Below the pieces are notes generated by a model that was given only the letters and a program-made list of their open reading frames with translations, was not told the origin of the DNA and did not search any database. Shown here piece after piece: positions 12,547 through 46,943 of a stretch of DNA of 61,144 nt; positions within the stretch are counted from its first letter, which is position 1, and the number at the start of each line of letters is the position of its first letter. Origin of the DNA: Caldithrix abyssi (GTDB lineage: Bacteria; Calditrichota; Calditrichia; Calditrichales; Calditrichaceae); NCBI GenBank assembly GCA_011369465.1, contig DRQG01000024.1, forward strand, positions 1 to 61,144, read 5' to 3'. A program made the position numbers and the translations under genes.

Positions 12547-14145
12547 TCAGGATAAATAGAATATCCGGTGGGAAAAATCGTCAGGGTCTATCTTCTTTCC
12601 GATTTCCTTAACCCAATCTAAGCCATATTTGTTTAAAAAGTAAAGCGGGGCAATGATCCTTTCCTGCTTTTTGCCCTGCGGATAAAAATGTTCCCGGATA
12701 CGCTGCAGTTGGGTTGTTTTTTGCCGTTCCTTTTCTTCCAGACGTTTAAGCGCTTTGGCTTCCAAAGCATTCAGACTCTTTTCGATCTGAAAGAATGTTT
12801 TCTGTGCTGCGGGCGCCAATGTAGGATCCACTTCTTTCAGGATTGGTGATAAATGTTCCTGTTCCGTTCGCATTTTGGTGCGCAAAGACCGAAACGATTC
12901 TGTCAAACCGGTTTGATCCGTTTGTTTAAGCTGTTCCCGAACAAAGTTCTGCGCATCCGGGGTTACGGCTGCAGGATCGATATTCAATTTTTCCAGGAGT
13001 CGTTGGATAGCCGGTTCCACAAGGGTAAACGAAGCCCGGGGCTGCAGGTGGGGCATATACAAATTCAGACGTTCAAATGCTTTTTTGAGCATAGCCCAAT
13101 AGGCAATTTCCGCCGGGCCGGCCACATAGCTGATTACCGGCAGCATCCAGCTTTGCCAGAGCGGCCGGGTAAGCACGGTGGAAGAAAACCACTCCGGGTG
13201 CAGCCGGGCATAATCGACCAATTCGTTTTGCTTCCAACGTTTTTTTCGGTCTGCGCGAATGAACCCGGCTTCGTTATCGCGATATATATGCTGCCGCGCC
13301 CCGCCCCCGTCCGAAAGGTAGATATAGGCCAGCGACTTGCGCAGATGAACCTGCAAGGCGTAGCCCCCGGCATCGATATTTTCCGCCTGAGCGGAAAAAG
13401 CCGCCAAAACCGCTTCGTTATCCTGTATAAGCTGTTCAAAAAACGGAACGGAGGCTGATTTTATCTGAGGATCGCCGGGCAGGAAAAGTAAAAGTCCTGT
13501 ACCGTAAAATATATGACGGATCAAACAGGCAAAAGCTTCGGCCCAGTTTCGCTGCGGTTGATAACACGATTGCAGAACTGAGAACAACTCCCTGCTGAAG
13601 TCGGTTAGCGGTAAAGCCGCTTTCAGTTCATCCAACAAAACATTAACCGAGGCCGGTAAGCGACGCCTGCCCATAGAAAAGCCCTTCTCCTTTTCCTGTT
13701 CCGCTAAAAAAAAGGATTGCAGCCGTCCTTCTTTTGTCCACACCCACAACGAGGCCACTTCTTTATAATCGTGATCTTCCCCTTCAATCCAAAAAAGAGG
13801 ACACACGTTATAATCCGGTAAACGACGTTGCAATGACCGGGCTAAATGTATTGCGCTTAGCGTTTTGTAGATCGTGTACATTGGCGAGACAAACAAACCG
13901 GTTTGTTGTCCGGTTACCACAAAAAGGGGCGGTTTCTCGTTCAGGCTTTTTAAAACGCGATGTACGGCAGGGTCTTCGGTATGTTTATTTTGCTCATAAA
14001 GAAGTTGTACAAAATCCCGGTGGCGCTGTTCACCTGCAATGTTCCGGGCGGCGCTCAGCCAATCCGGTTTAAGGGGCAGGTTAAAGAAAGAAGCTGCCGC
14101 CGGGTGTTGACCGACATAATCGTCGAAAATTGATTTTTTTTTCAT
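12547..14145 (-). CDS. bshC: BshC, putative cysteine-adding enzyme of bacillithiol synthesis
   Basis: 532 aa, matching BshC. Recognisable blocks are the N-terminal FVVTGQQTGLFVSPMYTIYKTLSAI, PLFWIEGEDHDYKEVASLWVW, and the later WMLPVISYVAGPAEIAYWAMLK, followed by a long charged coiled-coil region (about residues 420-490: SLNALEAKALKRLEEKERQKTTQLQRIREHFYPQGKKQER). BshC adds cysteine to GlcN-malate, the last step to bacillithiol. bshA is elsewhere in the window (45822-46943); bshB is not visible. The gene precedes a methyltransferase/SDR pair on the same strand but is separated from it by about 60 nt. Confidence 0.9.
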   Translation of the reverse strand: MKKKSIFDDYVGQHPAAASFFNLPLKPDWLSAARNIAGEQRHRDFVQLLYEQNKHTEDPAVHRVLKSLNEKPPLFVVTGQQTGLFVSPMYTIYKTLSAIHLARSLQRRLPDYNVCPLFWIEGEDHDYKEVASLWVWTKEGRLQSFFLAEQEKEKGFSMGRRRLPASVNVLLDELKAALPLTDFSRELFSVLQSCYQPQRNWAEAFACLIRHIFYGTGLLLFLPGDPQIKSASVPFFEQLIQDNEAVLAAFSAQAENIDAGGYALQVHLRKSLAYIYLSDGGGARQHIYRDNEAGFIRADRKKRWKQNELVDYARLHPEWFSSTVLTRPLWQSWMLPVISYVAGPAEIAYWAMLKKAFERLNLYMPHLQPRASFTLVEPAIQRLLEKLNIDPAAVTPDAQNFVREQLKQTDQTGLTESFRSLRTKMRTEQEHLSPILKEVDPTLAPAAQKTFFQIEKSLNALEAKALKRLEEKERQKTTQLQRIREHFYPQGKKQERIIAPLYFLNKYGLDWVKEIGKKIDPDDFSHRIFYLS

Positions 14146-14208: not shown

Positions 14209-14958
14209 TTATTTCTTTCGGCAAAAAAGGATCATCCGTTCCGAATCGGTTGTGTATGTTTCGCCTTTATAATTTCCGTAAGAGGCCTGAACGCTAAAAC
14301 CGGCACGCAGCAACATGCGGCCCATCTCTTCAAAAGAGTACAAACGTACGGATTCGTGGAAGGATTTCTTCCTGTCGTTTTGATCCAGCGTAATTTCCTT
14401 GTGTACGCGCTGATTTTCTATATAACGTTTTTCTTTTATCCGGATACTGCCGGAATGACGAACGCTTTCTTCAATAAGATGCTCTTTGACAAACGGCGGA
14501 TTGAGATAATCGAGAAAGTAAATGCCTCCGGTTAGTATTACCCGGGCTATTTCCTGCAGCACCAGAGCATTTTCCGCATCCTTTGCAAAATAGCCGAAAG
14601 AGGTAAACAGCGATAGGGCGCCGTCAAATTTTGTTTTAACCGGAAGCGCGCGCATATCGGCGCGAATATACAATAAGTCCGAATGCTGCGGCGTATTCCG
14701 CTGTGCGTGACGCAGCAAGGGTGCAGAGAGATCGATACCGGTTACACGCAACCCATATCGGTTTAATATGCGGGCATGCCGCCCGTTGCCGCAGGCCACA
14801 TCCAAAAACCGCTGTCCGGGAACGGGCTTAACCGTACGCAGAAACAATTGAATAAGCTCGGCTGCGTCGTTTTCGTCCCTGTGCCGGTACACCTGTAGAT
14901 ATTCCGTTCCAAACCACTGTCGGTACCAATGGGTGTCATAGCCATTTGTTTTGCACAT
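14209..14958 (-). CDS. Class I SAM-dependent methyltransferase
   Basis: 249 aa. Motif I is RFLDVACGNGRHARIL (about residues 48-63), followed by VTGIDLSAPLL (acidic post-I), an aspartate-rich LLYIRADMRALPV and FDGALSLFTSFGYF, all typical of Methyltransf_25/11 enzymes. The substrate is unknown. Its start overlaps the 3' end of the upstream SDR gene by 23 nt, so the two are translationally coupled. Because that SDR flanks the sphingolipid-type genes, modification of a lipid or glycolipid is an attractive but unproven idea. Confidence 0.8.
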   Translation of the reverse strand: MCKTNGYDTHWYRQWFGTEYLQVYRHRDENDAAELIQLFLRTVKPVPGQRFLDVACGNGRHARILNRYGLRVTGIDLSAPLLRHAQRNTPQHSDLLYIRADMRALPVKTKFDGALSLFTSFGYFAKDAENALVLQEIARVILTGGIYFLDYLNPPFVKEHLIEESVRHSGSIRIKEKRYIENQRVHKEITLDQNDRKKSFHESVRLYSFEEMGRMLLRAGFSVQASYGNYKGETYTTDSERMILFCRKK

Positions 14959-15916
14959 ACCATTCTACCGTTTCCCGGATGCCTTCTTCCAGGGTAAAGC
15001 GGGTTTTGAATCCGAAATCCCTTTCTGCCCGGCGGGGGCTGCACACCCAAAAATTCTGTTTCATTTCGGTAATTTTATTGCGGTTTACCACAGCCGGTTT
15101 ATGCCTCAATCTGGATATGGCTTCGCTGAGCGTTGCCGCGCCTTTAAGCAGCATTTCGGGGATGTATATTCGGACGCCTCTTTTCCCCATTGTTTTGAGA
15201 ATGGTTTTGGCCACTTCTTCCCAGGAATAAGGTCGGTTGTTGGCTAAAAAATAGGTGCGCCCAAGCGTTTTTTTCAAACCGGCGGCGCGGATCATACCGT
15301 CAACCAAATCCTGTACGTGGATCAGGCTGAGATATTTTTCCCTTAATCCAACCTGAGGGATCACACCCCAGCGTACGGTACGGAAGAATTGCAGAATATC
15401 GCTGTCGCGGGGGCCATATACCGAGGCCGGCCTGATGATGGTTACCGGAAATTCTTTCTTTATTTCATTCAAAAAATTTTCAGCGGCCAATTTGCTTTTA
15501 CCGTAATCGGAAATAGGCTGCGGCGGATGGTTTTCGTCGATCGGTTCGATAGTCGGACTGGGGCCGGCGGCCGATTGAGAGCTTACATATACAAACCGTT
15601 TGAGATGGCTTCCCGATTTTATCAACGTGTCAACCAGATTGCGCGTACCCCGGTAATTGACTTCGTAAAAATCCTTTCCGTTATACGCTTTGGTGATGCC
15701 GCCCAGATGATAGACATATTCCGCTTCCCGAAGAACATTTTTAAGAGGTTCGGTATTGCGTAAATCGCCAAAAACACACTTCACATCCAAATCTGCAATC
15801 CACTGCAAGGGGTCCTTACTCATAACCAGAGCCTGAACCTTGTGTCCTTGTTCAACAAGCTTCTGCGTTAAAAAACTACCAATAAAGCCGGACGCCCCGG
15901 TAACAAAAACATTCAT
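14936..15916 (-). CDS. Extended SDR NAD(P)-dependent epimerase/dehydratase
   Basis: 326 aa. The N-terminal dinucleotide motif is VTGASGFIGSFL, the catalytic Tyr-Lys pair is YGKSK, with SSQSAAG supplying the active-site Ser, and VRPASVYGPRD (here IIRPASVYGPRD) is the usual later block. Such proteins act on nucleotide sugars, 3-hydroxysteroid-like or 3-keto lipid substrates. It is divergent from the serine-palmitoyltransferase-like gene (259-nt gap) and coupled to the methyltransferase. Together with the second SDR at 18926-19918 it is a candidate for the reductase step in sphingolipid synthesis; I favour the other copy for that. Confidence 0.8.
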   Translation of the reverse strand: MNVFVTGASGFIGSFLTQKLVEQGHKVQALVMSKDPLQWIADLDVKCVFGDLRNTEPLKNVLREAEYVYHLGGITKAYNGKDFYEVNYRGTRNLVDTLIKSGSHLKRFVYVSSQSAAGPSPTIEPIDENHPPQPISDYGKSKLAAENFLNEIKKEFPVTIIRPASVYGPRDSDILQFFRTVRWGVIPQVGLREKYLSLIHVQDLVDGMIRAAGLKKTLGRTYFLANNRPYSWEEVAKTILKTMGKRGVRIYIPEMLLKGAATLSEAISRLRHKPAVVNRNKITEMKQNFWVCSPRRAERDFGFKTRFTLEEGIRETVEWYVQNKWL

Positions 15917-16175
15917 TCTAATTCTTTCATTTTTAAAGAGTTAGAGTTTGTTTTAGCATAAATTTAAGTAGCATATTTTAAAAAAGTTTAGTATATTTCG
16001 CAAACCTTTTTAAATACCGGTTTAACTTTTATGCCCTTTGGGCAGGCACGATCTTCTTTTTTAGGAAAAAGACCAGCTTTTTCTTAAGCTTGCATTCGTT
16101 GCCACAATGACCTGACTCAACGTTGCAAAAGCCGGTACCTGTTTAATCCGGATGTGATAACCGTTTGGAGGCCTG

Positions 16176-17363
16176 TTGGATATTTTTGATAAATGCTTCA
16201 ACTTTACCCGCGCACGTGAAACCAGAGAAGCGGGCATTTACCCTTATTTTACACCCTTAAGTGGCAATGACGGCCCCCGGGTTCGTATTGACGGCCGCGA
16301 AATCATTATGATCGGTTCCAATAATTATCTGGGGCTCACCCACGATCCCCGCGTTGTGGAAGCCGCCATCGAGGCCACAAAACGTTACGGCACCAGCTGC
16401 TCCGGCTCACGGTTTTTGAACGGTACGCTCGATCTGCACGTAGAACTGGAAAAACGGATAGCCCAATTTATGCAGCGTGAAGCGGCCCTGGTTTTCAGCA
16501 CCGGTTATATGACCAATTTGGGAGCCCTGTCCACTCTGGCCGGCAGTAACGATATCATTATTATGGATAAGGCCGACCACGCTTCGATTTATGCCGGCAC
16601 CATCGCCGCATTACGTGCTACCATAAAACGTTACAACCACAACGATATGGACAGCCTGGAATCACTGCTCCGTTCCCTTCCCGAAGACAAAGGAAAAATC
16701 ATCGTCAGCGACGGCGTTTTCAGTATGGAAGGCGATATCGTCAAGCTGGACAGGCTGGTCGAACTGGCGCAAAAGTACCGGGCGCGTATTTACATCGACG
16801 AAGCGCACGGCGTCGGCGTTTTGGGAAAAAACGGAAGAGGCAGCTGCGAACTTTTGGGACTGGAAGACAAAGTTGATTTGATCATGAGCACCTTCAGCAA
16901 ATCTTTGGCCTCCCTGGGCGGATTTATCGCCGGCCCGGAAGCGGTAATCGATTACATAAAACACAAAGCCAGTCCGCTCATTTTCAGTGCCGCTCCCACC
17001 CCGGCAGCCACTGCAGCAGCTACAAAATCATTGGAAATTATTCAGGAAGAACCGGAGCGCATTACGCGCCTGCAATACATTGCCGATTATATGCTTAAAG
17101 AATTCAAAGCCCTGGGTTTTGATACAGGCGTTAGCAACGGCACGCCGATCATTCCGCTTTACGTGCGTAATGATGAACGCACCTTTATTTTCTGGCACCG
17201 TTTGTTTGACGAAGGCATATATGCCAATGCGGTGATCAGCCCCGCGGTACCCAGCGACGAAGCCCTGATCCGCACCAGTTTTATGTCCACTCACACGGAC
17301 GATGATCTGAACCGGGTGCTGGATATTATGCACAAAGTGGCTAAAGAAGTGGGGATTATTTAA
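16176..17363 (+). CDS. Serine palmitoyltransferase-like alpha-oxoamine synthase
   Basis: 395 aa PLP enzyme of the alpha-oxoamine synthase family (SPT, KBL, BioF, HemA). The PLP lysine is K242 in STFSKSLASLGGF; the stacking His (H135) is in DKADHASIYAG; DEAHGVGVLG binds PLP. The GSRFLNGTLDLHVELE block and the ending (IPLYVRNDERTF..., AVISPAVP, IRTSFMSTHT) are the pattern I associate with Bacteroidetes serine palmitoyltransferases rather than BioF or KBL. It would condense serine and an acyl-CoA/ACP to 3-ketosphinganine. The start is a TTG at 16176, with GGAGG 4 nt upstream. It is followed by the GNAT-like protein and flanked by SDRs, as expected for a ceramide locus. Confidence 0.8.
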   Translation: MDIFDKCFNFTRARETREAGIYPYFTPLSGNDGPRVRIDGREIIMIGSNNYLGLTHDPRVVEAAIEATKRYGTSCSGSRFLNGTLDLHVELEKRIAQFMQREAALVFSTGYMTNLGALSTLAGSNDIIIMDKADHASIYAGTIAALRATIKRYNHNDMDSLESLLRSLPEDKGKIIVSDGVFSMEGDIVKLDRLVELAQKYRARIYIDEAHGVGVLGKNGRGSCELLGLEDKVDLIMSTFSKSLASLGGFIAGPEAVIDYIKHKASPLIFSAAPTPAATAAATKSLEIIQEEPERITRLQYIADYMLKEFKALGFDTGVSNGTPIIPLYVRNDERTFIFWHRLFDEGIYANAVISPAVPSDEALIRTSFMSTHTDDDLNRVLDIMHKVAKEVGII

Positions 17364-17375
17364 TTACGAATGTAA

Positions 17376-17393
17376 CGCAAGATTTATCTTGCG
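17376..17393. repeat. 18-bp palindrome CGCAAGATTTATCTTGCG
   Basis: Perfect 8+2+8 inverted repeat just after the SPT-like stop. A near-identical copy (CGCAAGATTCATCTTGCG) is at 54028-54045. It belongs to a class of palindromes built around ATAAAT/ATTTAT cores. Confidence 0.7.
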
Positions 17394-17395
17394 GG

Positions 17396-17640
17396 AAGTA
17401 CATAGTACATAGTACATAGTATTTAGTATTTAGTACAAAGTAGGAAGTGACGGGTAAACGGGTAATTAGAAAATAGAAATTGGAAATTGGGAACTGGGAA
17501 TTAATTACGAATCATTTAATTACGAATTACGAATTAAAAGCTAACAGCCAATAGCCAACAGCTAAAAGCCCAATAACTTAATAACTCAATAACTTAGTAA
17601 CTAAAAACTGATAACTGACAACTAAAAAACTATAAAATAA
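17396..17640. repeat. Iterated-word intergenic element
   Basis: Runs of tandemly degenerate words: TACATAGTACATAGTACATAG (17401 on), TTTAGTATTTAGTA, GGAAATTGGGAACTGGG, AATTACGAATTACGAATTA, GCCAATAGCCAACAGC, AACTTAATAACTCAATAACT and CTGATAACTGACAACT. The part to about 17510 is the reverse complement of the element at 5580-5670. The gap between the SPT-like and GNAT-like genes contains nothing else. Confidence 0.65.
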
Positions 17641-17654
17641 TTCGAGGCACAGCC

Positions 17655-18782
17655 ATGTCCGTTCAAATTAAAACCGTCCGTTCATCCAGGGAGAAAAACC
17701 TGTTTATAGACCTGGAATGGCGTATGAATAAAAACACGCCGAACTGGGTGAGTCCCTTGCGTATGGAGCGCAAGAAAATACTGGACACGAAGAAAAATCC
17801 TTTTTACAAACACGCCGAAATCGAACTGTTCATTGCTTATAAAGACGGTGTGCCCGCCGGACGGATCGCGGCCATTACCAATGAGAACCATAATGCATTT
17901 CATAATGATAAAGCCGGATTTTGGGGATTTTTCGAGTGCATTGACGATCAGGAAACGGCCAATGCCCTGTTTGAAGCGGCGGCAGACTGGCTTAGAGCGA
18001 AAGACCGGGATCATATGCTTGGCCCGATGAATCCTTCTACCAATGACGAATGCGGTTTGTTGATCGACGGATACGATACCCCGCCCTTCATTATGATGAC
18101 CCACAACCCGACCTATTATCCCACTCTGGTGGAAGGATTTGGAAACACCAAAGCCAAAGATTTATTTGCCTGGTACAGCCCCACCAAGGATGCGGTGGAA
18201 CAGATTACCGAGAAGATGCGACGCGTAGCCGGAAAGATTCTAAAGAAATACAACATCACGGTACGCAATATCAATATTAAAAAACTGGATGAAGAGATCA
18301 AATTGATCAAAGAGGTCTATAACGACGCCTGGAGCAATAATTACGCCTTTGTTCCCTTTACCGAGGAAGAGATCGACGCCGTGGCTGCCGACCTGAAACC
18401 ATTGGCCGACGAAAACCTGATTTATATTGCCGAACGGGAAGGCAGACCTGTAGCCTTTAGCGTAACTATCCCCAACATCAACGAAATCCTGGCCAAAATT
18501 CCCAATGGCCGGCTCTTTCCTACCGGTATTTTTAAGCTGTTAACGGGCATGAAAAAAATAAAAACCGTGCGGGTTATCATTTTGGGGGTTATTAAAGAAC
18601 TGCAATTCAGCGGGCTCGGCTCTGTTTTCTATGTACGAACTATCGAAAATGCCTATAAAGCCGGCTACATCGGCGGCGAGATGTCCTGGATACTGGAAGA
18701 CAACCACACTATGAACCGGGCTATTGCATCGTTCGGGTCAAAAAAGTATAAGACATACCGTTTGTATAGTTACCCCTTATAA
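17655..18782 (+). CDS. GNAT-superfamily acyltransferase, candidate bacterial ceramide synthase
   Basis: 375 aa, no signal peptide. The N-terminus (NTPNWVSPLRMERKKILDTKKNPFYKHAEIELFIA, GRIAAITNENHNAFHNDKAGFWGFFECIDDQETANALFEAAADWLR) and the DHMLGPMNPSTNDECGLLIDGYDTPP block define a large two-domain YghO-like branch of GNAT proteins. Bacterial ceramide synthase (bCerS) of Caulobacter was reported to be a GNAT-like acyltransferase encoded near SPT; I infer the same role here, N-acylation of the sphingoid base, mainly from context. GAGG lies 7 nt before the ATG. An intrinsic terminator follows at 18818. A generic N-acetyltransferase cannot be excluded. Confidence 0.65.
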   Translation: MSVQIKTVRSSREKNLFIDLEWRMNKNTPNWVSPLRMERKKILDTKKNPFYKHAEIELFIAYKDGVPAGRIAAITNENHNAFHNDKAGFWGFFECIDDQETANALFEAAADWLRAKDRDHMLGPMNPSTNDECGLLIDGYDTPPFIMMTHNPTYYPTLVEGFGNTKAKDLFAWYSPTKDAVEQITEKMRRVAGKILKKYNITVRNINIKKLDEEIKLIKEVYNDAWSNNYAFVPFTEEEIDAVAADLKPLADENLIYIAEREGRPVAFSVTIPNINEILAKIPNGRLFPTGIFKLLTGMKKIKTVRVIILGVIKELQFSGLGSVFYVRTIENAYKAGYIGGEMSWILEDNHTMNRAIASFGSKKYKTYRLYSYPL

Positions 18783-18817
18783 CCGCATAACCACAGTTAA
18801 GTTATACATCTAAAAAT

Positions 18818-18858
18818 CGCCGGAAAGAATAAAGAGTTTGATGTTCTCTTTTCCGGCG
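18818..18858. terminator. Hairpin terminator, probably bidirectional
   Basis: CGCCGGAAAG pairs with CTTTTCCGGCG (one bulge) around a loop of about 20 nt. It is followed by TTAAATTTTT on the plus strand and by ATTTTTA on the minus strand, so it can end both the GNAT-like gene and the opposing SDR transcript. Confidence 0.65.
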
Positions 18859-18907
18859 TTAAATTTTTAATTACGAGTCCTTTTTCTTTTGTCTTTCTTG
18901 ACGATTT

Positions 18908-18925
18908 CACGACATAAATGTCGTG
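18908..18925. repeat. 18-bp palindrome CACGACATAAATGTCGTG, copy 1
   Basis: Perfect 8+2+8 inverted repeat that abuts the stop codon of the minus-strand SDR gene. An identical copy lies at 23073-23090 just beyond the proS stop. Confidence 0.8.
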
Positions 18926-19918
18926 TTACTTCTCATTGCGTTGTTTATACCACTGCACCGTGCGTTTTACGGCCTCCTCTAAGGGGATACGCGGCTCGTA
19001 GCCCAATATCCTGCGGGCTTTTTCGATGGAGAAATAATAATCCCGCCCGCCGTTCATAATGCGGTAGCGGGTGAGCAAAGGCGGGGTTTGGATAAGGAAT
19101 AATTTGTAGAACATTTCCATCAGCCAGGCCAGAGCATAAACCAATCCGTAAGGCACGGAAAGCTTGGGGCGTTTTAGCCCCATTGCATCGGCCAGAGCGT
19201 CGGTAAACTGTTTCCAGGTAATATCCAGCCCGTCGGTGATGATGAACGGTTCATTCTTGGCCCGCTCATGAAAGCAAGCCAGCAGAATGCCCTCCACCAG
19301 ATTTTCGATATAGACCGGGCAGGTTTTGTGCCGGCCGCCGTCGATGTAGGCAATTTTACCCTGTTCCAGCGCTTCCAGATATTTATCGATAAAGGTGTGA
19401 TCGCGCGGACCGTACACATTGCCCGGACGTACGGCGGTGACTTCCATTGCGGTTTGTTCGGCAAATTCAAACAGCCATTTTTCGGCTTCTTTTTTGCTTT
19501 CGTTATAAGGAAAGATCGTATCGGCCATAGGGAAATCTTCATCCACAGCTTGCTTGTGGCCGAAGCCGTGCAATGCCACGGTGCTGATATGCACAAATCG
19601 TCTAACGCCTACCTCAGCGGCGGCGCGGGCAATATTCTGTGTGCCTTGCACATTGATGCGCCGGAAGCGTTCATACGGCCCCCAGTCCGAGGCCAGCCCG
19701 GCCACATGAACAACGATATCCACCCCTTCTAACGGCTGCCGCAAGGTCTCCGGGGCGGTGATATCGCCGTAAAACAGTTGGATATCAAGTCCTTCAATCA
19801 ACGACAGATCGGATGTTTTGCGCACCAGTCCGCGCACTTTGTGGCCTTCTTTTCGCAGCCGTTCGGCTACATGGCTGCCGATAAAACCGTTAACGCCGGT
19901 AATTAGAATAGTTTTCAT
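18926..19918 (-). CDS. Extended SDR NAD(P)-dependent reductase, candidate ceramide reductase
   Basis: 330 aa. N-terminal LITGVNGFIGSHVAERL binds the dinucleotide; HISTVALHGFG supplies the Ser/Thr and YNESKKEAEKW the catalytic Tyr-Lys pair; AVRPGNVYGPRDHTF is the next family block. A hydrophobic stretch near 255-275 (YGLVYALAWLMEMFYKLFLIQTPPLL) resembles the membrane-associated C-terminal part of 3-beta-HSD-like reductases. In Caulobacter, CerR, which reduces the 3-keto group, is an SDR of this extended type. It lies downstream of the CPBP gene by 4 nt and converges on the GNAT-like gene, so a lipid role is likely. Nucleotide-sugar epimerisation remains possible. Confidence 0.75.
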   Translation of the reverse strand: MKTILITGVNGFIGSHVAERLRKEGHKVRGLVRKTSDLSLIEGLDIQLFYGDITAPETLRQPLEGVDIVVHVAGLASDWGPYERFRRINVQGTQNIARAAAEVGVRRFVHISTVALHGFGHKQAVDEDFPMADTIFPYNESKKEAEKWLFEFAEQTAMEVTAVRPGNVYGPRDHTFIDKYLEALEQGKIAYIDGGRHKTCPVYIENLVEGILLACFHERAKNEPFIITDGLDITWKQFTDALADAMGLKRPKLSVPYGLVYALAWLMEMFYKLFLIQTPPLLTRYRIMNGGRDYYFSIEKARRILGYEPRIPLEEAVKRTVQWYKQRNEK

Positions 19919-19922
19919 AAAA

Positions 19923-20651
19923 TTACCTCAACATCACAAACACATCCGTTAATACCCCGATGGCGGCATGCAGGATAAACACATACCATATCGAACGGGT
20001 GCGCAAAGCAATGGCGCCAAACAGGATGCCGATGACGATAGAACCTAAAATTTCGCCGTCCGGTTTGCCCAAATGAATCAGGCAGGACGAGATGGTCTGG
20101 ATTAATACGGCTGGCATGGCGCCCCAGTATTTTTTTATGCCAAAGAGCAGAAAACCGCGGAAGAAAAATTCCCAGGCGATGTAATAAAAAACCACATAGG
20201 CCAATTCATACCAGAGTACCCATTCCCGGTGTTGATACAACGCTTTGGATAAAGGATATTCCGCCCGAATGTCCGGCATTCCCGCGGCGATATAAATCAG
20301 CGGGGCAACGATGAGCGGCACGGCAATTAACACAAACAGGAAACCGTAACGTTTGTCCCCCATTTGCAAACCATATTCCGCCGGGCTTTCTCTGCGGATA
20401 AATTTTATATATACCAGCGGCAAAAGAAAAGTGAGTAAAAAGAAGGAAGCAAACTGCATGATATGCGCATAAATATCTCCGGCCGCGTTATTTTGAAAAG
20501 CGGGCACAATTTTTAATAGAAAGCGGGCATTGCCGTAATACCAATACAATGTGAGCAGCAGCGGTGCGCTAATTAATAAAACATATAGATGCATATCCCG
20601 TTTCTTATATTCGAGAGCGTCCAATAAAGATTTCATGTTTACCTCGTCCAA
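19923..20651 (-). CDS. CPBP-family (Abi) intramembrane protein with a variant active-site motif
   Basis: 242 aa, about six to seven hydrophobic segments. The CPBP hallmark appears as AWEFFFRGFLLFG: the canonical EExxxR is here W-E-F-F-F-R, so the first Glu is replaced by Trp. The second motif is present as SSCLIHLGKPDGE (F/L-x2-x-H type) and the third as GILFGAIALRTRSIWYVFILHAAIG. Family members are intramembrane glutamic proteases (Rce1, MrtA-like), but many have scaffold or unknown roles. It overlaps the upstream AUR1-like gene by 13 nt and precedes the SDR by 4 nt, so all three form one operon. Confidence 0.8.
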   Translation of the reverse strand: MDEVNMKSLLDALEYKKRDMHLYVLLISAPLLLTLYWYYGNARFLLKIVPAFQNNAAGDIYAHIMQFASFFLLTFLLPLVYIKFIRRESPAEYGLQMGDKRYGFLFVLIAVPLIVAPLIYIAAGMPDIRAEYPLSKALYQHREWVLWYELAYVVFYYIAWEFFFRGFLLFGIKKYWGAMPAVLIQTISSCLIHLGKPDGEILGSIVIGILFGAIALRTRSIWYVFILHAAIGVLTDVFVMLR

Positions 20652-21595
20652 AAATGGAAATCGAATCTTTCATGGTATTTTTCGTACAGGCGGTTGCCAA
20701 ATATCCAGCTCAGTAAAGCCAGTAAAGCGCCTGCCAGCACATCAATTACATAATGATAACGTAAATAGACCAGCGATATGAGAATCCCAATCGCTACCGG
20801 TATAAAAATGAGATACATTTTTCGATGGTACTTGCGGGCAATGAGCATGGTTAGCAGTAAAATGGCCGTATGAAGGCTGGGAAAAGCATCCAGCTTGTTG
20901 GGTTCCAGGAAATTAATGGTGTTCCGGATGGGTTCCGCGAGTAAATATCCGTTTAGAGGAATGGATTGAAGATCGGCCATATAAAAACGCGGTCCCTGCG
21001 CAGGCACCAAAAAATAAATAATATATGCGCTATAATAACAAAGCATCAACACAAAAATAGCTTGTTCCACTTCTCTGTACTTCTGTTTTTTTAACATCCA
21101 CCCTATAACAATAAGCGGCATGGGAAAATAGAAGGCATATAAAACATATAAAACTTCCGTAAGCAAGGGATGAATCCAGCGTTCAAACCAAACTGTCGGA
21201 TGAACGCCTAATAAATCATAATCGATACTACTCAATAAAGCGTCGTAACGAGCGGAGCTAAAAAAAGGAATGAGCATAAAAAAAGATTCAAACATAATGA
21301 GCAAAAAAAGCACCAGTATAACCAACATAGTGATACGCTGCCAGGGCTCGTGGTTAAATCGATTGCGTAAATAAACCGAAAGCCATACCAATGACGCCAA
21401 AGCCAGATAGACCGCCAATAATTCTATACGGTATGGCGTGCGGTAGAATGCAGCGGTATACAATAGGACGACAATACCGAGAAACAGCAGATTCGTAAAA
21501 TCGAGTATGCTTAGTCTTTTTATGTAGTTTGGCATCCGTTTACCGTGTTTCGTTATCGCATGGTTAATTTTTGAAAATTCGGACGAATTTAGCAT
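20639..21595 (-). CDS. AUR1-like PAP2 (PAP2_3) membrane protein
   Basis: Up to 318 aa with about six transmembrane segments. The PAP2_3 signature is clear: PAQGPRFYMADLQ before the core, FPSLHTAILLLTML with the catalytic His, and YLRYHYVIDVLAGALLALLSW with the second His/Asp pair. PAP2_3 includes fungal AUR1 and bacterial inositol-phosphorylceramide-synthase-like proteins, which move a phospho-head group onto ceramide. The start is uncertain: the ATG at 21595 has no clear ribosome site, and an in-frame ATG at 21535 (MPNYIKRLS) is an alternative. It heads an operon with the CPBP and SDR genes beside the SPT-like gene. Dephosphorylation of a sphingoid or isoprenoid phosphate is the alternative function. 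Confidence 0.75.
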   Translation of the reverse strand: MLNSSEFSKINHAITKHGKRMPNYIKRLSILDFTNLLFLGIVVLLYTAAFYRTPYRIELLAVYLALASLVWLSVYLRNRFNHEPWQRITMLVILVLFLLIMFESFFMLIPFFSSARYDALLSSIDYDLLGVHPTVWFERWIHPLLTEVLYVLYAFYFPMPLIVIGWMLKKQKYREVEQAIFVLMLCYYSAYIIYFLVPAQGPRFYMADLQSIPLNGYLLAEPIRNTINFLEPNKLDAFPSLHTAILLLTMLIARKYHRKMYLIFIPVAIGILISLVYLRYHYVIDVLAGALLALLSWIFGNRLYEKYHERFDFHFWTR

Positions 21596-22123: not shown

Positions 22124-22954
22124 TTAATTTAAATTTTCATCGTCATGTTCACGCAAATAGCGCGAACCTTCTTCCAGCATTTGCTTCTCTTCTTCGGTTA
22201 AATTCAAATAACCTACTTTATTAATTTTGTCCAGCAAATCATCCACAACTTTGCGGTAATACTCGGTTTTCTTATCCCCACCTTTAGTATAATGCATGTG
22301 GGAGCCGCTTTTAGTACTTGTAAATAATCCGGACAGCTGGCTTTTAATTTTATAACTCAAATGTCCATATTTCAGATATACATAACCAACCACCGCTCCA
22401 CCCAGGTGAGCTACGTGCGAAATGGTACTGGCCGTAGACCCTACAAACATCAGGAACTGAAAACCAACCAGGAAGATCATAAAATATTTGATCTTTACCG
22501 GAAATAAAAAATAGATATAAATCATACGATCCGGATAGCGCAGAGCGTAGGCTACCATTACTCCGTAAATAGCGCCCGAAGCGCCGATGGTTGGGTATGG
22601 GGAAAGAAGCGCAATAAAAAGTCCGGCTCCGATGCCCGAAATAAAATAAAACTTAAGAAATTCCCGCGTTCCCCACTCATATTCCAGTTCCGTACCGAAC
22701 ATCCACAGTATAAACATATTGAACAGAATATGCATAAAACCGCCGTGGACAAACAAATAGGTTACCAGCTGCCATATTTTGAAGCTGGAAAACACCTGAG
22801 CCGGTACCAAAGCGAAGTTCTGGCGAATAAAGAAATCCAGCCCCGGGTTAAGGAGCTGCATTAAAAACACGACCCCGTTAATAAACAGTAAGTTTTTTAT
22901 GGCCGGCGGTATTGCCCCGCCCGGTCCGAAGCCGTATGATCGATTCTGATACAT
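22124..22954 (-). CDS. Rhomboid-family intramembrane serine protease
   Basis: 276 aa. Six transmembrane segments; the catalytic Ser is in GASGAIYG, the catalytic His in HVAHLGGAVVGY, and HGGFMHILFNMFILWMFG is the conserved TM2/L1 block. The C-terminal about 65 residues are cytoplasmic and end in DLLDKINKVGYLNLTEEEKQMLEEGSRYLRE, the small helical extension common to FCB-group rhomboids (DUF6576-like). Substrates are unknown; such proteases cleave single-pass membrane proteins. It is followed by the Cys-rich mini-protein gene. Confidence 0.9.
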   Translation of the reverse strand: MYQNRSYGFGPGGAIPPAIKNLLFINGVVFLMQLLNPGLDFFIRQNFALVPAQVFSSFKIWQLVTYLFVHGGFMHILFNMFILWMFGTELEYEWGTREFLKFYFISGIGAGLFIALLSPYPTIGASGAIYGVMVAYALRYPDRMIYIYFLFPVKIKYFMIFLVGFQFLMFVGSTASTISHVAHLGGAVVGYVYLKYGHLSYKIKSQLSGLFTSTKSGSHMHYTKGGDKKTEYYRKVVDDLLDKINKVGYLNLTEEEKQMLEEGSRYLREHDDENLN

Positions 22955-45821: not shown

Positions 45822-46943
45822 ATGCGCATAGGAATAACCTGCTATCCCACTTACGGCGGAAGCGGGGTTGTGGCTACGGAACTGGGGAAAAAATTGGCCG
45901 CCCTGGGGCATAAGGTGCATTTTGTATCGTACGCCCTGCCTTACCGCCTGAACAGTTTTAATCCCAATCTCTTCTTTCACGAAGTGGATGTGGTTAAATA
46001 TCCTTTGTTCGAATATCCCCCTTACTCTCTTTCGCTGGCATCCAAAATGGTGGAGGTCATCGAATACGAAAAGCTGGATATTATGCATGTGCATTACGCC
46101 ATTCCCCATGCCACCAGCGCGTACCTGGCCAGGGAAATCAGTCACCAAAAAAACCTGAAAGTGATCACAACCCTTCACGGCACCGATATTACCCTGATCG
46201 GACAGCACCCGTCCTTCCGCAGTGTCGTGCGCTTTTCCATCGAGCAGAGCGACGGTATAACGGCTGTTTCCGAATTTCTACGCGAAGAAACCTGCCGGAC
46301 TTTTGATATACAAAAAGAAATCAAAGTCATCCCTAATTTCGTGCCGGATGATTTTCTGGGACCCCATCACACGGAGCAGGTAAAATCCTGCTTTAAGATC
46401 GAAGACGAATTCATCATCACCCATATTTCCAATTTCAGGCCGCTCAAACGGACGCAGGACATCATTGAAATGATGCGCCATCTGGTTAAAAAACACACCG
46501 TTAAACTGTTGATGGTGGGCGACGGACCGGATCGCTCGGTAGTGGAAGCCCGCTGCCACGAGCTGGGATTATGCGGGCAGATTCTGTTCCTGGGCAAGCA
46601 GGATAATGTGGCGGATATTCTGTGTGCCAGCGACGTGTTTTTATTACCCAGTGAGCATGAAAGTTTTGGCCTGGCCGCCCTCGAAGCCATGGCCTGCGGA
46701 GTGCCCTGCGTAACCAGCAATGCCGGCGGTCTAACCGATTTGAATAAACACGGGAAAACCGGCTTTGTAGCGCCGGTTGGCGATATAGCCGCCTTTGTTA
46801 AAGCCATAGAACGCTTGATAGAAGACGGTGATTTGCGTAAAAGCATGGGAGAAAACGCCCGGCGTTATGCGTTAAACAATTTCAGCGCCGACGCCATTGT
46901 GCAGCAGTTTTTGAATTTTTACGAAGAAGTATTAGCCCGCTAA
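45822..46943 (+). CDS. bshA: BshA, N-acetyl-alpha-D-glucosaminyl L-malate synthase
   Basis: 373 aa GT4-family glycosyltransferase. MRIGITCYPTYGGSGVVATELGKKLAALGHKVHFVSYALPYRL at the N-terminus, DIMHVHYAIPHATSAYLAREI and SEHESFGLAALEAMACGVPCVTSNAGGLTDL are the BshA pattern. It forms GlcNAc-malate, the first step to bacillithiol. bshC is present at 12547-14145 and bshB is not in the window. The closest upstream gene is the GGDEF regulator, 4 nt away. Confidence 0.93.
   Translation: MRIGITCYPTYGGSGVVATELGKKLAALGHKVHFVSYALPYRLNSFNPNLFFHEVDVVKYPLFEYPPYSLSLASKMVEVIEYEKLDIMHVHYAIPHATSAYLAREISHQKNLKVITTLHGTDITLIGQHPSFRSVVRFSIEQSDGITAVSEFLREETCRTFDIQKEIKVIPNFVPDDFLGPHHTEQVKSCFKIEDEFIITHISNFRPLKRTQDIIEMMRHLVKKHTVKLLMVGDGPDRSVVEARCHELGLCGQILFLGKQDNVADILCASDVFLLPSEHESFGLAALEAMACGVPCVTSNAGGLTDLNKHGKTGFVAPVGDIAAFVKAIERLIEDGDLRKSMGENARRYALNNFSADAIVQQFLNFYEEVLAR

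Follow-up and report, generated by a model that had tools for sequence, protein, structure and literature searches.

Ceramide is a lipid core long considered typical of animals and fungi. Among bacteria, the clusters of Caulobacter crescentus and Escherichia coli B comprise aasR, cerR, acpR, spt and cerS, and the E. coli gene yghO (ECD_02850) is an ortholog of Caulobacter CC_1154, which is needed for dihydroceramide (PMC9386255). In Bacteroides the ketosphinganine reductase is a classical short-chain dehydrogenase/reductase (SDR), BT_0972, unlinked to spt (PMC9278070), and the phosphatidylinositol (PI)-dihydroceramide synthase BT_1522 was itself recognised via homology to AUR1 (PMC9246714). 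Serine palmitoyltransferase (Spt)-like proteins have been reported in metagenome-assembled genomes (MAGs) of 38 phyla, many with the ceramide synthase bCerS and the reductase CerR nearby (PMC11334938). Here, a locus at positions 14209-21595 of a 61,144-nucleotide stretch of Caldithrix abyssi DNA (Calditrichota; contig DRQG01000024.1 of assembly GCA_011369465.1; the whole stretch is hereafter the window, along which positions are counted) is read, with a probability of roughly 0.88, as a locus for de novo ceramide synthesis through Spt, bCerS and CerR, accompanied by a probable head-group enzyme of the PAP2_3 family. The enzyme activities and products given below are assigned from homology, phylogeny, synteny and predicted folds.

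Comparison with described systems

Like the clusters of Caulobacter and E. coli B, the window encodes homologous Spt, CerR and bCerS proteins (36%, 29% and 37% identical, respectively, to those of E. coli B). Unlike those clusters, its open reading frames (ORFs) include neither acpR, for a specialised acyl carrier protein (ACP), nor aasR, for an acyl-ACP synthetase, so that the locus does not qualify as the Rhodobacterial acyl-ACP type; in the tree described below, its Spt falls into the Bacteroidetes/myxobacterial group and not into the Rhodobacteria group. The Sphingobacterium/Bacteroidetes enzymes (3a2b, NF047600) represent the best-scoring SPT subfamily and their active site is conserved in the window protein, but the latter scores below the NF047600 cut-off and forms a clade of its own with relatives from its lineage. 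Where Bacteroides has a classical SDR apart from spt, the window has an extended-SDR CerR beside it. The same three genes stand together in Myxococcus and in Ignavibacteriota, the latter sharing the divergent layout of the window; Myxococcus differs in gene order (spt-bCerS-cerR), and the clusters of both lack bshC-nmbA behind cerR.

The original prediction had placed this set of three genes within about 7.4 kb, in a lineage where the pathway was held to be little described. All three core genes are present and syntenic, and every named ORF lies where it had been placed, although one ORF of the range, encoding a CPBP/Rce1-like protein, had been overlooked. A literature search for sphingolipids in Calditrichota found no report, the co-mentions seeming irrelevant by title and abstract; as Spt-like genes are already reported from 38-40 phyla, the locus is nevertheless a further example of a known pathway type, and its less known part is the AUR1-like cassette. 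What it offers is a ceramide locus both compact and well supported, from a deep lineage of bacteria, and with it a concrete lipidomics prediction for cultured relatives. It also illustrates a combination found across many phyla, in which the CerR accompanying an Spt of Bacteroidetes/myxobacterial type is of the kind known from Caulobacter and E. coli rather than that of BT_0972, and it singles out an AUR1-like protein as a candidate for adding the head group.

The three core enzymes

The alpha-oxoamine synthase at 16176-17363, previously called SPT-like, is assigned by its sequence as a serine palmitoyltransferase. Among alpha-oxoamine synthase models it scores highest against NF047600 (CFB serine palmitoyltransferase; 526.8 bits), 137 bits above the next, and its closest relative in the PDB is the SPT of Sphingobacterium multivorum (3a2b, E=3.8e-124), followed at a distance by a Thermus-type BioF/KBL enzyme (4e-79) and, more weakly, by E. 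coli KBL and BioF and by SulA (7u7h, 3.5e-61), with KBL at 1e-67. Alignment finds all SPT catalytic residues in place: the pyridoxal phosphate lysine Lys242, the stacking His135, Asp208, His211 and Arg366. An SPT from a Calditrichota MAG is 59% identical. In a tree of 94 rows, the window protein belongs to a clade with SH-aLRT support of 96 that takes in the SPT of S. multivorum and that of E. coli B; outside it lie KBL and BioF of E. coli and the KBL/BioF-like proteins of the relatives themselves. By phylogeny, the protein is thus classed as an SPT, yet by score it is not an NF047600 equivalog.

For the 375-residue product of 17655-18782, homology had to be demonstrated by aligning it directly with the E. 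coli B protein (strain BL21, the reference also for CerR and Spt), because no Pfam or NCBIfam model fits: none matched at 1e-3, and E. coli YghO likewise matches no NCBIfam model. The two proteins align over their full length (37% identity, 377 columns, E=2e-81), and in BL21 yghO adjoins aasR-cerR-acpR-spt. A phmmer search against the PDB returned chance haemagglutinin matches only; the AlphaFold model (pLDDT 91) has a tandem-GNAT fold (E=4e-13). The protein is accordingly classed, from sequence and model, as a tandem GNAT of the bCerS/YghO family, which agrees with the bCerS reading first proposed for it; the accompanying label 'GNAT-like' is borne out by the predicted fold, though not by the family models. 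Its gene adjoins spt in nearly all relatives of the class. The genome carries a second gene of this family (L088, 8142-9248, G000:C148), the product of which is 33% identical and does match the GNAT model PF00583.

Both extended SDRs of the locus had been counted towards the pathway, and only one appears to be CerR. SDR1 (14936-15916) scores 127 bits with E. coli B CerR, against 72 bits for SDR2 (18926-19918), and in the SDR tree E. coli CerR nests within the SDR1 clade (SH-aLRT 97), while SDR2 forms a separate clade outside the CerR-type SDRs; SDR1 is therefore assigned as CerR on sequence grounds, and SDR2 is ruled out for that role by its low score and its separate clade. SDR2 gives 189 bits against the HpnA model, under the cut-off, and its close relatives are found only together with PAP2_3-CPBP. 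The N-terminus of SDR1 opens directly with the Rossmann motif; CerR of Caulobacter is periplasmic.

In the proposed pathway, Spt would form 3-oxosphinganine by condensing L-serine and a fatty acyl thioester, bCerS would add the second acyl chain, and CerR would reduce the 3-oxo group to give dihydroceramide, the order of the last two steps being that proposed for Caulobacter. PAP2_3 would then probably transfer a phospho-alcohol head group, which may be phosphoinositol, from a phospholipid to ceramide by AUR1-like phosphotransfer through His242, His281 and Asp285, with SDR2 and CPBP presumably accessory genes that travel with the PAP2_3 gene.

Synteny across bacteria

GTDB genomes were scanned with a bCerS profile, counting spt within 4 kb and a CerR-type SDR within 5 kb. 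Among the 80 loci found, 53 have spt, and a CerR-type SDR accompanies 38 of these 53 but only 2 of the 27 without spt (p=4e-8, an indicative value, as the loci are phylogenetically non-independent). The three-gene set recurs in Ignavibacteriota, Myxococcota, Acidobacteriota, Gemmatimonadota, Zixiibacteriota and others. Closer to the window the association is similar: of 39 relatives, 33 have spt and 31 of these carry the CerR type, against 1 of the 6 without spt (p=2e-4). Most relatives of the same order keep spt, bCerS and cerR together, and in families f1, f2 and f4 (relatives are labelled here by genome, G, locus, L, and family, f1-f5) cerR is divergent from spt-bCerS.

In one genome of the same class (G036; L248, G036:C241, 6408-14043), a ceramide cluster of Rhodobacteria/E. 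coli type, including a bCerS, stands in place of the window's type, with spt, acpR, cerR and aasR products 53%, 58%, 43% and 46% identical to those of E. coli B; replacement by transfer is likely. In family f4 (L065, L066; G026, G022), spt is nested among Ignavibacteriota SPTs and cerR groups with the window's family, a discordance that suggests either that spt alone was transferred or that the history is mixed.

A putative head-group enzyme

The suggestion that the PAP2_3 protein is AUR1-like has gained strength. The closest PDB folds to its predicted structure (pLDDT 90.8) are inositol phosphorylceramide (IPC) synthase (9vj4) and Aur1-Kei1 (9ivc), and when the PDB is searched with a profile built from its family, AUR1 is the best match (E=1.4e-4), over the full length. 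The protein bears FPSLH and RYHYxxD (HxxxD) motifs, the His and Asp of which do not vary within the family; many relatives have Gly in place of the FPSLH leucine. Because it combines an AUR1/IPC-synthase fold with these catalytic motifs, a phospho-head-group step of the kind originally envisaged is plausible from the model, by the same logic through which BT_1522 was recognised. Fold and motifs are shared with AUR1 and BT_1522, but the protein is not a BT_1522 ortholog by score, reaching only 28.6 bits against NF052609, for which the cut-off is 480.

Where relatives carry the cassette, CPBP always sits between PAP2_3 and SDR2. G007 and G016 carry all three genes next to the locus; G004 has the cassette at the same place next to the rhomboid gene, where the contig ends, and in G010 it lies beside a second bCerS-like gene. 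In Bryobacterales/Solibacter, genes for PAP2_3 relatives form an unbroken row with cerR, bCerS and spt (L135, L161, L175, L183, L186). It is conceivable, if rather unlikely, that this protein represents a new subfamily of AUR1-like phosphosphingolipid synthases in bacteria, one that moves as a PAP2_3-CPBP-SDR2 cassette, has relatives in spt clusters, those of Acidobacteriota among them, and would place a non-inositol head group on ceramide, SDR2 and CPBP serving to make or export that lipid.

A second AUR1-like PAP2_3 subfamily, about 32% identical to the window's, lies beside a MIPS-PIPS operon in G006 and G019 (L234, 5543-6517; L235, 3336-4289) and is a candidate for the IPC synthase of the lineage.

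Alternative interpretations

Several findings weigh against the ceramide reading or its head-group part. The Spt falls under the curated cut-off of NF047600 (640 bits); bCerS-family genes occur without spt in 27/80 loci of the GTDB scan, and the second copy in the window's genome (C148) adjoins no alpha-oxoamine synthase. In families f3 and f5, cerR lies away from spt, and one relative, G009, retains a cerR-type SDR with both spt and bCerS missing. For the head group, enrichment of PAP2_3 beside spt in the scanned loci is not significant (14/53 versus 3/27, p=0.15), one cassette-bearing genome (G016) has no MIPS, and the PAP2_3 gene that adjoins MIPS in G006 and G019 is of the other subfamily. 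The cerR-type SDR of G009 (L247, G009:C93, 7503-8591) is 40% identical to that of the window.

Two readings would give the alpha-oxoamine synthase another substrate. KBL and BioF belong to one fold family with SPT, and the bioF model reaches 370 bits; yet the SPT model leads by the margin given above, the tree sets the enzyme apart from the KBL and BioF of both E. coli and the lineage, constraining the window's SPT group to KBL/BioF is rejected by the approximately unbiased (AU) test (p-AU=0.02), and the pairing with bCerS is conserved. The phylogenetic placement that the original prediction had called for thus puts the enzyme outside KBL/BioF, and the notion that it is one of these, standing among unrelated neighbours, is barely credible: tree and AU test together rule it out. 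A sulfonolipid (capnine) locus, in which a SulA-like enzyme would use cysteate instead of serine and bCerS and the SDR would complete N-acyl-capnine, is very improbable. SulA shares the fold family, hence the match to 7u7h, but the SPT 3a2b is far the better match, and Lys281, the residue that tells SulA from Spt (PMC9304779), is replaced by Ala272 in the window protein, as in Spt, which disfavours this reading.

The ceramide reading of the core genes stands apart from the question of what PAP2_3 does, where the alternatives carry more weight. The PAP2 superfamily consists mostly of phosphatases, LpxE and PgpB also match the window protein, and the cassette is missing beside spt in most relatives; a lipid phosphatase of the PgpB/LpxE/undecaprenyl-diphosphate type, with the cassette a chance neighbour, is accordingly a serious if less favoured possibility, bearing on the head-group part only. 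Speaking for the synthase are the top structural and profile matches to IPC synthase and Aur1 over the full length, the FPSLH motif as in Aur1 (though Acidobacteriota relatives have PSGH), and the presence of PAP2_3 relatives inside Acidobacteriota spt operons. If PAP2_3 is a synthase, its head group could be phosphoinositol, as with BT_1522, because the genome carries MIPS, overlapping a gene that best matches the Bacteroides PI-phosphate synthase (PIPS); the fold is AUR1-like, and this is the sole full-length PAP2_3-type match in the genome. The cassette without MIPS in G016 weakens MIPS as proof of such a head group, and together with the other PAP2_3 subfamily beside MIPS in G006 and G019 it reduces the support for inositol; with the low NF052609 score added, a phosphoinositol head group seems less likely than not.

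Organisation of the locus and neighbouring genes

The features are collected in Table 1. Family matches of the ORFs are far above chance: Aminotran_1_2 for spt (1.5e-55), Epimerase for the two SDRs (1.9e-40 and 7.9e-35), PAP2_3 (7.8e-22) and Methyltransf_25 for the methyltransferase (3e-16).

Table 1. Genes of the locus and its flank, with predicted products
Gene	Predicted product and role	Positions	Strand	Basis
spt	Serine palmitoyltransferase (PLP-dependent alpha-oxoamine synthase); first committed step	16176..17363	+	NF047600, PDB, tree, active-site residues
bCerS	Bacterial ceramide synthase; tandem GNAT N-acyltransferase, YghO family, 375 aa	17655..18782	+	YghO homology, AlphaFold fold, linkage
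cerR (SDR1)	Extended SDR; 3-oxo-ceramide or 3-oxosphinganine reductase; divergent from spt	14936..15916	-	Bits, tree, linkage
PAP2_3	Membrane protein; probable AUR1-like phosphosphingolipid (ceramide head-group) synthase	20639..21595	-	Pfam, predicted fold, motifs
CPBP	CPBP/Rce1-like intramembrane protein, 242 aa; overlaps PAP2_3 gene; accessory	19923..20651	-	PF02517 E=6.6e-12
SDR2	Extended SDR of HpnA/OleD-like kind; accessory cassette gene, not CerR	18926..19918	-	Own clade; HpnA 189 bits
nmbA	N-methyl-bacillithiol synthase; outside ceramide pathway	14209..14958	-	PDB 9RI2 E=2.7e-44
bshC	Bacillithiol synthase; context only	12547..14145	-	TIGR03998 444 bits, over cut-off

The methyltransferase had been included in the ceramide locus and appears instead to belong to another pathway. 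Its best PDB match is NmbA of C. tepidum, with the next structure at 8e-13, and NmbA is an N-methyl-bacillithiol synthase (PMC6282198, PMC12719100). As with NmbA, the gene stands with bshC, and bshA lies within the window at 45822-46943, bshB elsewhere in the genome. It is assigned from its sequence as N-methyl-bacillithiol synthase, an identity that rules it out as a lipid enzyme and removes the temptation to read too much into a neighbouring gene; together with bshC it would serve N-methyl-bacillithiol synthesis, the two merely lying on the same strand behind cerR. The gene overlaps cerR, and the row cerR-nmbA-bshC occurs in many relatives; in G003, G006 and G008, nmbA and bshC are lost from the locus and cerR-spt-bCerS is retained.

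The start codon of spt is TTG, with GGAGG immediately 5'. Between spt and bCerS lies a spacer of 291 bp (17364-17654), AT-rich and with degenerate short repeats (AGTACAT, TTAATTACGAAT and AATAACT units); the gap in the closest relatives is short, some tens of bases only. Positions 22124-22954 of the window hold a rhomboid protease gene with weak rhombosortase similarity, which most close relatives have next to proS and the sphingolipid locus.

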